From: Halorubrum amylolyticum
GTDB lineage: Archaea > Halobacteriota > Halobacteria > Halobacteriales > Haloferacaceae
Direction: 5' to 3'
NCBI RefSeq assembly: GCF_004114995.1
Contig: NZ_SDJP01000001.1
Coordinates: forward strand, 186,001 to 250,000
Length of the DNA stretch: 64,000 nucleotides
Part shown: positions 1 through 53,095 of the stretch, in pieces
How positions within the stretch are numbered: the stretch's first letter is position 1
Layout: each line of letters begins with the position of its first letter
Notes under the pieces: generated by a model
Database searches by the model: none
Seen by the model: the letters and a program-made list of their open reading frames with translations, nothing else
What the model was told of the DNA's origin: nothing
Made by a program: the position numbers and the translations under genes

Positions 1-1472
1 CGGTCGCCGAGGCGGTCGCGACCGAGGGCGTCGACTACCGCGAGATGGACGAGGACGCCCGCCAAGAGTTCCTCACCGAGGCGATCCTCCAAGAAGACCC
101 GGTCGTCGACGCCGACGAGCCCGGCGACGTCTCCGAGACCACCGAGCGCGTGCTCCGGCGGTTCCAGGAGCTTGCCGACTGGCAGGACGAGTACGGCGCG
201 CAGGCGATTGACACCTACTGCATCTCGATGACGGAGGAGCCGAGCCACGTGCTCGAAGTGCTCTTCTTGGCCGATCAGGTCGGTGTCGTCTCGCTGCCGG
301 ACCACTGCGGGCTCGACGTGGTCCCCCTGCTGGAGACCGAATCCGCACTCAACGGCGCCGAACGCATCCTCGGGGAGCTCTTCGACAACGAGGCGTACGC
401 GACCGCGCTGGAGGTCCGCGGGGAGATCCAAGAGGTCATGCTCGGCTACTCCGACTCCAACAAGGAGAACGGGTTCCTCGCCGCGAACTGGGACCTCTAC
501 GAGAATCAGCGCCGGATCGCGCGGTTCTGCCGCGAAGAGGAGGTCACCCTCCGGCTGTTCCACGGCCGCGGCGGCTCCATCTCGCGGGGCGGCGGGCCGA
601 TGAACGAGGCGCTGCTCGCGCTTCCCAACGAGACGGTCACGGGACAGGTGAAGTTCACCGAGCAGGGCGAGGCGATCGCCGAGAAGTACGCCAACCCGCG
701 GATCGCCGAACGCGAGCTCGAACAGATGCTCGACGCGCAGATCCGCGCCCGTCAGGAGGCCAACGAGGAGCCCACCGAGGAGGTGCCCGAGAGCTGGGTC
801 GACGCGATGGAGACGATGGCGCCCGCCGCCCGCGAGACGTACCGCGATCTCCTGAACACCGACGGGTTCGTCGACTACTTCGGACAGGCGACGCCCATCT
901 CCGTCGTCGAGAACCTCAACCTCGGCTCGCGGCCCGCCTCGCGCTCCGGCGAGCGCACCGTCGAGGACCTGCGGGCGATCCCGTGGGTGTTCTCGTGGAC
1001 CCAGACCCGGCTCATCCTCCCGGGGTGGTACTCGCTCGCATCCGGGCTCGACGCCTACCTCGACGCGGTCGGGGAGGCGGAGGGCCTCGAAACCCTCCGA
1101 GAGATGTACGAGAAGTGGCCGTTCTTCCGCACCACTCTCGACAACGCGGCGCTCGCGCTCGCCCGCACCGAACCGGAAATCGCCGCCGAGTACGCCGACC
1201 TCGCGGACGACGACCTCCGGGAGCGGTTCTTCCCCGAACTGATCGGGGAGTACGAACGCGGCCGCGAACTCGTCCTGGCGATCAGCGGCCGCGACGATCT
1301 GATCCGCCGCGAGTGGCTTGAAGAGAGCCTCGACCGGCGGAACCCCTACGTCGATCCGCTGAACCTGCTGCAGGCGAACCTACTCGGGCGGACGCACCGC
1401 ACCGAGGAGGAGGAGCGGACCCTCCGGCTCACCGTCAACGGCATCGCCGCCGGGATGAAGAACACGGGATAG
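1..1472 (+). CDS. ppc: Phosphoenolpyruvate carboxylase, C-terminal part (5' end outside the window)
   Basis: Carboxylates phosphoenolpyruvate to oxaloacetate, an anaplerotic step feeding the TCA cycle. The frame is open from base 3, so the gene enters from the left and only its C-terminal roughly 490 residues are here. Visible family signatures are the active-site stretch GYSDSNKENGF, the glycine-rich loop FHGRGGSISRGGGP and the C-terminal tail ending NGIAAGMKNTG, which carries the conserved ending of bacterial-type PEPC. The gene is convergent with S19e. The family call is very safe; the full length cannot be judged. Confidence 0.95.
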   Translation, partial: VAEAVATEGVDYREMDEDARQEFLTEAILQEDPVVDADEPGDVSETTERVLRRFQELADWQDEYGAQAIDTYCISMTEEPSHVLEVLFLADQVGVVSLPDHCGLDVVPLLETESALNGAERILGELFDNEAYATALEVRGEIQEVMLGYSDSNKENGFLAANWDLYENQRRIARFCREEEVTLRLFHGRGGSISRGGGPMNEALLALPNETVTGQVKFTEQGEAIAEKYANPRIAERELEQMLDAQIRARQEANEEPTEEVPESWVDAMETMAPAARETYRDLLNTDGFVDYFGQATPISVVENLNLGSRPASRSGERTVEDLRAIPWVFSWTQTRLILPGWYSLASGLDAYLDAVGEAEGLETLREMYEKWPFFRTTLDNAALALARTEPEIAAEYADLADDDLRERFFPELIGEYERGRELVLAISGRDDLIRREWLEESLDRRNPYVDPLNLLQANLLGRTHRTEEEERTLRLTVNGIAAGMKNTG

Positions 1473-11417: not shown

Positions 11418-11426
11418 TTTATAAAA
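11418..11426 (+). promoter_or_regulatory. TATA box in front of structured element copy A
   Basis: TTTATAAAA, close to the haloarchaeal TATA consensus. Its spacing predicts a transcription start near 11443, exactly where the conserved stem of element A begins. It is only 22 bases after the tmcA stop and no protein gene follows on this strand. Confidence 0.6.
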
Positions 11427-11432
11427 CGACCC

Positions 11433-11754
11433 GCGGTGGCGCGTGCCTGCGAGCGGCCGCCCTCGGCGGCCGCGAGTCAGCACGCGCGAGGGACGCCGCG
11501 AACGCCCGAAGGGCGTGAGCGGCGAGGCTGGGGAGGTGCGAGGTCCGGTTGTGGTGCGGTGCCGGGTGGGAGTCAAAGGGGCAGCCGCGAGGACGACGTA
11601 GGCGACGCAAGCACTGGAATGAGGGAGCGAACGGAGTGAGCGACCGAGTGAAGCGCGCAGCGAGCGTACGTCGTCCTCGCGGCTGGGGCTTTGGCGGTGG
11701 TCGCCGCAGCAACCACGTACAGCCGAGCGGCTGGGGCTTTGGCGGTGGTCGCCG
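11433..11754 (+). ncRNA. Candidate structured RNA / repetitive element, copy A
   Basis: Noncoding stretch sharing blocks with 51418-51570 and, reversed, 52831-53095. It folds locally into P1 (GCGCGTGC 11439-11446 with GCACGCGC 11480-11487), P2 (11453-11461 with 11465-11473, 9 bp, 3-base loop), P3 (CGCCGC 11494-11499 with GCGGCG 11519-11524, enclosing 11502-11507/11511-11516) and P4, a perfect 19-bp pairing of 11582-11600 with 11667-11685. The 3' tail CGGCTGGGGCTTTGGCGGTG occurs twice. Open frames here are shadows. Function unknown; the structure and TATA suggest a transcribed RNA. Confidence 0.55.
11680..11754 (+). repeat. 27-bp direct repeat forming the doubled tail of element A
   Basis: 11680-11706 and 11728-11754 are identical over 27 bases, 48 bases apart. 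The same tail appears once in copies B and C, so copy A has duplicated its 3' end. Confidence 0.85.
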
Positions 11755-11827
11755 TCGATCTGCGGTCAGTTATTTATAAGCGGGCGACTCGAACGACAGA
11801 GTCCGTCACCGCACCGACAACGACTAC

Positions 11828-51409: not shown

Positions 51410-51417
51410 CGCGATGC

Positions 51418-51570
51418 GGTGGCGCGCGCCGCCGAGTGGCCGCCATCGGCGGCCACGAGGTGCGCGTGCGAGGTCGTCGGGCTTCGCCCGACTGCCAGAG
51501 GGACCTTCGGTCCCTCGCTGGACGCGGCGACCGAAGGGAGCCGCGAGGCTTTGGAGGTGTTCACCGCGTT
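51418..51570 (+). ncRNA. Candidate structured RNA / repetitive element, copy B
   Basis: Same 5' block as copy A (GGTGGCGCGCGCC) after the same TATA box, and the same tail (GAGGCTTTGGAGGTGTTC, 51545-51562). Stems: P1 51422-51429 with 51462-51469; P2 51437-51444 with 51448-51455, 8 bp; then GTCGGGC/GCCCGAC (51476-51482/51486-51492) and GAGGGACC/GGTCCCTC (51498-51505/51509-51516), both with TTC loops. The centre differs from A and C but is again made of perfect hairpins. Noncoding; function unknown. Confidence 0.5.
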
Positions 51571-52739: not shown

Positions 52740-52830
52740 ATCGGACGCGGATACGGTCGTGAGGCGTAAAGCGGCGTCGAACGTGAACCGCTCGCGATCA
52801 GCGGTTCGTCTCAGAGCTGTTGTCGGCGCG

Positions 52831-53095
52831 GAGAACACCTCCAAAGCCCCAGCCGTGGAGGACTCGATGGGCTCGCTGCGGTCCTCAGTCGGTCGCTATC
52901 GCTCCCTCCTTGCGGTCCTTGCGTCGCCCGTCTTCGCCCTCCATGGCTGCCCCTTTGAGTCCCACCCGACCGCACCGCAACCGCAGCCTCACGCCTCCCC
53001 AGCCTCGCCGCTCGCGCTTAAAAGCGCTCGCGGCGTCCCTCGCGCGTGCTCCTCGCGCCCTTATCAGGGCGCTCGGAGGCACGCGCCACCGCACC
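52831..53095 (-). ncRNA. Candidate structured RNA / repetitive element, copy C
   Basis: Reverse-strand relative of copy A, sharing the 5' block GGTGCGGTGGCGCGTGCC, the core GACTCAAAGGGGCAGCC and tail CGGCTGGGGCTTTGGAGGTG. Stems in + coordinates: P1 53042-53049/53079-53086; P2 53055-53061/53066-53072 (7 bp, different sequence from A); P3 53006-53011/53030-53035 enclosing 53014-53018/53023-53027; P4 52850-52861/52938-52949 with one mismatch. Only a weak TTATAGG box lies upstream. Noncoding. Confidence 0.5.

Follow-up and report, generated by a model that had tools for sequence, protein, structure and literature searches.

Within 64 kb of a Halorubrum genome, three intergenic stretches resemble each other in sequence and in fold. 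This raised the question of what kind of element they represent, whether RNA gene, mobile DNA or chromosomal site, and how the copies are kept alike. In the original prediction, they were described as a candidate new multicopy family of noncoding RNAs started from TATA boxes. The analysis presented here covers the whole 64-kb stretch, called the window, and related copies in other haloarchaea.

Three Copies in the Window

The window contains two full copies, A and C, and a partial one, B. Copy A was located by blastn and by a covariance model at 11433..11755 on the plus strand, and consists of the hairpins P1 and P2, a G-rich linker, the long hairpin P3 and two tail units. It begins with GCGGTGGCGCGTGCC at 11433 and is flanked on the same strand by two TATA-like boxes, both read directly, TTTATAAAA on the 5' side (11418..11426) and TTTATAA on the 3' side (11773..11779). 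Folding placed P1, GCGCGTGC...GCACGCGC with a tandem G-A step, at 11439..11487 (+), and P2, the sequence class of which varies from copy to copy, at 11494..11523 (+). The linker (CTGGGGAGG ... GGGTGGG, 11528..11570, +) is made up of conserved unpaired segments. P3 was identified with the covariance model R1; its core and tail occupy 11569..11694 (+), with the layout UCAAAG-GGG-(long stem, tandem G-A steps)-GGG-CUUUGG, and a second tandem tail unit lies at 11729..11755 (+), its end being approximate. The closest blastn relatives of copy A are 72-84% identical to it. It is bordered on one side by the stop of a gene resembling tmcA and on the other by a small ferredoxin-like gene in convergent orientation, both named by eye, and the same address is also occupied in the genomes G021 and G024 (L034).

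Copy B (51416..51570, +) comprises P1 and the GGCTTTGGAGGTGTTCACC tail; the CAAAGGGGCAG core of P3 is absent, and R1 gave no match there. Copy C (52828..53092, -) is a full element with a single tail and no TATA box, and is located between an eIF2-gamma-like gene, named by eye, and a divergent gene. Its P3 was found at 52962-52841 (-). In the search of the window with R1, P3 of copy A scored 125.4 bits (E 3.2e-27) and that of copy C 106.8 bits (E 7.8e-23), values far outside what chance would give. All three related intergenic stretches exist as originally described, and when folded as RNA each of them beats its dinucleotide shuffles by 5 standard deviations. The base-pair swaps reported between the copies, from T-A to C-G in P1 and from C-G to T-A in the inner closing pair, are also real.

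Architecture of the Element

In Halorubrum, the element starts with TTTATAAA, a few nucleotides and GCGGTG, followed by P1, which is built from GCGCGYGC, C, a triplet NNN, GA, an inner hairpin, GA, the triplet N'N'N', GCRCGCGC and GAGG. P1 is followed by the P2 hairpin, for which several unrelated sequence classes occur, by CGAGGCTGGGGAGGYGTGAGG, a variable GCGGT-rich stretch, GGGTGGGACTCAAAGGGGCAG and P3, and on the 3' side of P3 by CTGGGGCTTTGGAGGTGTTCACCG, a spacer and a TATA-like box. P3 is about 118 nt in size with the feet GGACUCAAAG and CUUUGG, and is composed of a UCAAAG/CUUUGG helix, a symmetric GGG/GGG internal loop, a 19-bp stem and 2-bp helices parted by tandem G-A steps. Its core is 108, 116-117 or 124 nt long, in increments of about 8 nt, as would follow from joint length changes of the two arms.

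The linker carries YTGGGGAGG in 239 of 246 copies and GGGnGG in equally many, and its G-rich segments are kept in other genera. Four conserved G tracts were identified, all four being present in 209 of the 246 copies; judged from their sequence, they could form a quadruplex at high K+. GGAGG motifs, conserved at 11528-11536 and in the tails, are complementary to the CCUCC of the 16S rRNA 3' end. The tail unit of 48-60 nt has its own TATA-like box and is present in one to eight tandem units, which are often identical. Identical spacers, with a TATA-like box in each unit, were observed in such tandem tails (1-8 units) in L037, L006, L018 and copies of G021 and suggest recent amplification.

Conservation of the Fold

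Among 79 Halorubrum sequences, 28 of the 42 pairs of P3 have changed on both sides. In the alignment of these sequences 92.8% of the cells pair, compared to 80.6% after shuffling, and 350 cells are doubly changed, compared to 90 after shuffling and no more than 42 in slid structures; the observed values were attained by none of 500 shuffles. Across genera, 33 of 40 pairs have changed on both sides, with 506 doubly changed cells versus 152 in shuffles and a maximum of 91 in slid structures, in an alignment that was fitted to the model and is biased towards it. The outer helix of P3 is swapped genus-wide, being UCAAAG/CUUUGG in Halorubrum and UGAAAG/CUUUCG or UGGAAG/CUUCCA elsewhere, while the GGG/GGG loop is kept. 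The triplet of P1 pairs fully in 139 of 159 copies, with a mean of 49 after shuffling. For P2, with 193 distinct sequences, 126 of 235 copies have a closing stem of at least 5 bp, where shuffling gives 17.

When copies at the same site in two species were compared, 43 of the 58 changed pairs of the proximal stem were doubly compensatory and 10 were broken. Wobble pairs of this stem are G-T in 29 cases and A-C in 7, and this strand specificity identifies the given strand as the folded one. It was thus shown that the ability of the named strand to form P1, P2, the G-rich linker and the long P3 hairpin is maintained. Covariation of P3 is strong against shuffled and slid controls, and P1 covaries as well. 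The claim of a selected RNA structure holds for the selected, strand-specific fold; its RNA nature does not follow, since folded single-stranded DNA would leave identical covariation and would also pass the criteria for structured RNA. The GNA triloops were weighed by eye as a sign of a fold at the DNA level and gave no decision either way. A low G-U content, considered as another such sign, was rejected after calibration on tRNAs of the same genome: the element uses 1.6-3.3% G-U and the tRNA stems 2.1% (a small sample, n=12), and this likeness gives no reason to favour DNA over RNA.

Occurrence in Haloarchaea

The source genome contains about 60 copies, 50 places being located by blastn alone, and all 52 Halorubrum genomes gave blastn matches. 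In G021, 140 copies were counted in the 2.22 Mb covered, which lie outside 2.0-2.8 Mb; this extrapolates to about 190 and corresponds to about one copy per 16 kb. Other Halorubrum genomes contain 98 (G014), 58 (G022) or 1 (G025), and copy number therefore spans more than 100-fold within one genus. With a single P3 copy against 58-190 in its congeners, G025 is a natural near-null for functional comparison.

Matches at E <= 1e-6 were obtained in 220 of the 292 genomes searched in the class Halobacteria, representing 62 of 77 genera, and a sample of about 100 non-haloarchaeal genomes of the phylum gave none at E <= 1e-3. The outer signature is genus-wide, CUCAAAG/CUUUGG in Halorubrum versus CUGAAAG/CUUUCG elsewhere. 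Named contigs with matches are nearly all from Halorubrum, with one from Halobellus captivus (L142); this Halorubrum-type copy in another genus is a hint of horizontal transfer. P3 is mostly single in Halorubrum, while head-to-head pairs are common in other genera. These pairs are spaced by about 35 nt or by 180-350 nt (G094, G172, G255, G057; L195, L203, L211, L201, L206), each arm has its own unrelated hairpin sequence, and the tails point outward.

No Rfam family matched the window at the gathering threshold, and a lax search gave only mir-598, below threshold, in L191 and outside the element. An exact-pattern search of IMG/VR and a blastn search of phages revealed no copy in virus and phage collections, the Halorubrum form was not found on plasmids, and literature searches of open-licence papers by sequence string and topic gave no description of the family. 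Nor was a match to a known insertion sequence found, so that the alternative of an insertion sequence end, named in the original prediction, receives no support, and the proposal of a multicopy family without an Rfam match is supported. This is a real, class-wide family of structured elements, uncatalogued in Rfam and in the papers searched.

Genomic Placement and TATA-Like Boxes

Only 2 of 138 Halorubrum copies overlap a gene call, as made with a simple codon model built for this analysis, and all four orientation classes of neighbouring genes occur. Compared to the expectation from intergenic length in G021, copies are enriched in convergent gaps (49 versus 17.5), close to expectation in codirectional gaps (72 versus 76.7) and depleted in divergent gaps (17 versus 43.8). 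From this pattern, the elements are not leaders of particular genes, and either promoter regions are avoided or 3' ends are preferred; the avoidance of divergent gaps may merely reflect selection against promoter breakage. A leader of the downstream gene was rejected as a candidate on account of the mixed orientation classes. Orientation along contig C1 of G021 shows a plus bias at 0-300 kb and a minus bias at 300-1000 kb, near a change of GC skew, and is balanced elsewhere; a replication-strand rule was rejected as a rule, the bias being local to 0-1000 kb. No transposase was identified between close neighbouring copies when the proteins were read.

A TATA-like box at -24..-10 precedes 66% of the Halorubrum copies. 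TWTAWA starts in most copies at -16 to -11 from GCGGTG, with a peak at -14/-13. A similar box is present on the 3' side, in most copies at +29..+32 after TTTGG and in 63% at +20..50. Since boxes are found at both ends in every gene-orientation class, convergent gaps included, they belong to the element itself. P1 begins about 17-18 nt from the centre of the 5' box. In haloarchaea, the centre of the TATA box is usually about 26-27 nt from the transcription start. The flexibility of this distance was described as restricted in a dRNA-seq study (PMC4983044). A transcript started by the 5' box would therefore begin inside the 5' strand of P1 and contain an incomplete P1, so that the TATA reading is unsupported for an RNA containing P1. 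The originally predicted start, placing the beginning of copies A and B where a TATA-driven transcript should start, had been derived from a TTATAAA-to-GGTGG spacing of 15-16 nt, counted from the start of the box instead of its centre.

Fixed Addresses and Exchanged Content

For 49 copies, the flanking genes are also adjacent in G021. At these addresses, G021 contains a copy in the same orientation in 40 cases and in the opposite orientation in 4, and 5 are empty; orientation is kept beyond chance (p 1.7e-8). No clear target duplication was found at the empty G021 sites, where the flanks have diverged. For copies from other genera, 19 of 30 flank pairs are not adjacent in G021, and one site is empty.

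The content at shared addresses is mixed. P3 identity is 87.3% between orthologs and 86.4% between paralogs, and the ortholog ranks at a median of 63 among the 140 G021 copies by P3 likeness. Same-site orthologs have the P1 triplet in common in 7 of 35 cases (7.0 by chance) and the tail number in 15 of 40 (13.3 by chance). The 3' strand of P2 is common to 7 of 34, versus 2.4 by chance, and this excess indicates a weak memory of orthology and an incomplete exchange. Fixed addresses with mixed content are best explained by exchange among copies through gene conversion, which is likely in the polyploid haloarchaea; part of the likeness between ortholog and paralog values could also stem from saturation at free positions.

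The Plasmid Form

The P3 form of other genera is present on 41 plasmids. At 12 plasmid loci found through P3, and at one in Halomicrobium with a divergent P3, P3 ends a non-coding block that lies immediately upstream of a divergently oriented gene encoding a protein of about 286-300 amino acids with a C-terminal RPA/SSB-like OB fold (alignment A4). This arrangement occurs on plasmids of about a dozen genera. Among 10 loci picked by the OB-fold gene, 2 gave clear and 3 weak P3 matches, and 1 more contains a visible variant.

A block of about 460 nt at these loci shows strong conservation across many genera; on the P3 strand G-U outnumbers A-C by 98 to 10, and Rfam searches of the plasmid loci gave no match to it. 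The block, which contains long hairpins, was observed between the start of the OB-fold gene and P3 in L349-L374 (e.g. L350:3524-4106); the large plasmids concerned, among them pNRC100 and plasmids of Halorubrum, come from more than a dozen haloarchaeal genera. In L368, L370 and L374, the block is present even without P3. On several plasmids (L350, L372, L374, L353, L356), the OB-fold gene is followed by a gene of the TFIIB family or one for an HNH-repeat/C2H2 zinc-finger protein, in varying combination. An origin or a leader of the OB-fold gene would be equally conceivable roles for the block.

A two-part RNA system can be imagined as a long shot, in which a plasmid RNA of about 600 nt ending in P3 is partnered by the RPA-like OB-fold protein, and 1 to about 200 dispersed chromosomal P3 elements with the same domain would be bound in trans by such proteins, linking gene control of chromosome and plasmid. 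The shared P3 domain would possibly include a K+-stabilised four-tract G-quadruplex.

Comparison to Known Repeats

BOX, ERIC and NEMIS-type sequences are bacterial repeats, modular and intergenic, which measure 100-300 nt, have RNA-like folds and vary in the number of an inner or end unit. The haloarchaeal element is likewise a modular intergenic repeat with variable unit number, but its sequence and fold differ, and the bacterial repeats are not known to have an equivalent spanning an entire class of archaea. The ends of IS200/IS605 elements and archaeal MITEs are hairpin-bearing and non-coding and can be mobilised in trans; for the present element, in contrast, neither target duplication nor transposase linkage was found, and it was not detected in the viral collections. 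Its GCGGTG/CACCGC ends are short. GOLLD and ROOL are structured RNAs of large size found close to genes of phages or plasmids. The plasmid form resembles them as a conserved non-coding block of several hundred nucleotides beside a gene for a nucleic-acid-binding protein, but it has no Rfam match, and the chromosomal form is dispersed and multicopy.

The bacterial REP, BIME and REPIN sequences are extragenic imperfect palindromes, present in tens to hundreds of copies, often as inverted doublets and with lineage-specific variants (Nunvar 2010, PMC2817692; Bertels and Rainey 2011, PMC3116915). The haloarchaeal family shares with these its 60 to about 190 mostly extragenic copies in several Halorubrum genomes (with 1 in G025), the imperfect palindrome P3 and the inverted doublets of other genera. 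However, REP units have 20-40 bp and a GTAG/CGTC-type foot, whereas here a hairpin of 118 nt with GGACUCAAAG / CUUUGG feet is part of a multi-helix element of about 270 nt. The haloarchaeal element further differs in its tandem G-A steps, its GGG/GGG loop, its addresses conserved across species and its archaeal host. In the one genome searched for a Y1/RAYT link, the source genome, the three Y1 matches were found on C11, C53 and C15, contigs without a listed copy. Since unit size and RAYT linkage, two defining features of REP, are thus lacking, the family is not filed as REP/BIME; by analogy, the best reading is still that it works most like these repeats.

Weighing the Explanations

The reading preferred here, at a probability of about 0.42, is that of haloarchaea-wide dispersed non-coding elements which fold as single strands and have a REP/BIME-like organisation, larger and more elaborate, and which would act at the RNA level. 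The fold would act in transcripts running through from neighbouring genes, where a structured 3' side might limit convergent read-through or protect transcript ends. An element in a convergent gap acts on the transcript of one strand only, which counts against such a 3'-side role. The copies would have spread in the past, their likeness presumably being maintained by gene conversion between them. Non-autonomous mobile DNA of the REP/REPIN or MITE type, with hairpins recognised as single-stranded DNA by a trans-acting transposase and any RNA incidental, is conceivable but doubtful. It would account for the high, lineage-specific copy number, the intergenic placement, the outward ends of the head-to-head doublets, the tandem tails, some pairs of filled and empty sites and the genus-wide signature of the outer helix. 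Against it stand the lack of a transposase between neighbouring copies, the position of the Y1 matches, the absence of a legible target duplication at empty sites with diverged flanks, the negative searches of IMG/VR and phages, and the 40 of 49 comparable sites common to both species in the same orientation.

The view of the original prediction, by which every copy would be a small RNA gene in its own right with a TATA promoter of its own, is unlikely. A strand-specific covarying fold and 5' boxes in about two thirds of the Halorubrum copies, even in convergent gaps, agree with it, but the 5' box is too near to P1, such boxes are also present on the 3' side, and about a third of the copies, copy C among them, have no 5' box. 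In addition, about 35 nt between the head-to-head P3 cores of other genera leave little room for promoters, and a Halorubrum with one copy exists. Very improbable is a site in the DNA that serves chromosome organisation or recombination, either protein-binding or a crossover-prone palindrome, where the fold would matter in the form of a cruciform or of single-stranded DNA. Frequent recombination at the element does follow from addresses that stay fixed while content is exchanged, and on plasmids P3 adjoins the RPA/SSB-like OB-fold gene; a copy number of 1 to about 190 in one genus, the merely local orientation bias along the G021 chromosome and a 101-kb plasmid (C2 of G014) on which no copy was found speak against such a site.

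Among the structured non-coding families of haloarchaea, the dispersed elements described here may be the most abundant. Lying unannotated in convergent gaps, they would blur the calling of 3' ends and antisense transcripts in haloarchaeal transcriptomes. With fixed addresses, swapped content and compensated folds, they provide a natural experiment on the means by which likeness among dispersed structured repeats is maintained in a genome.
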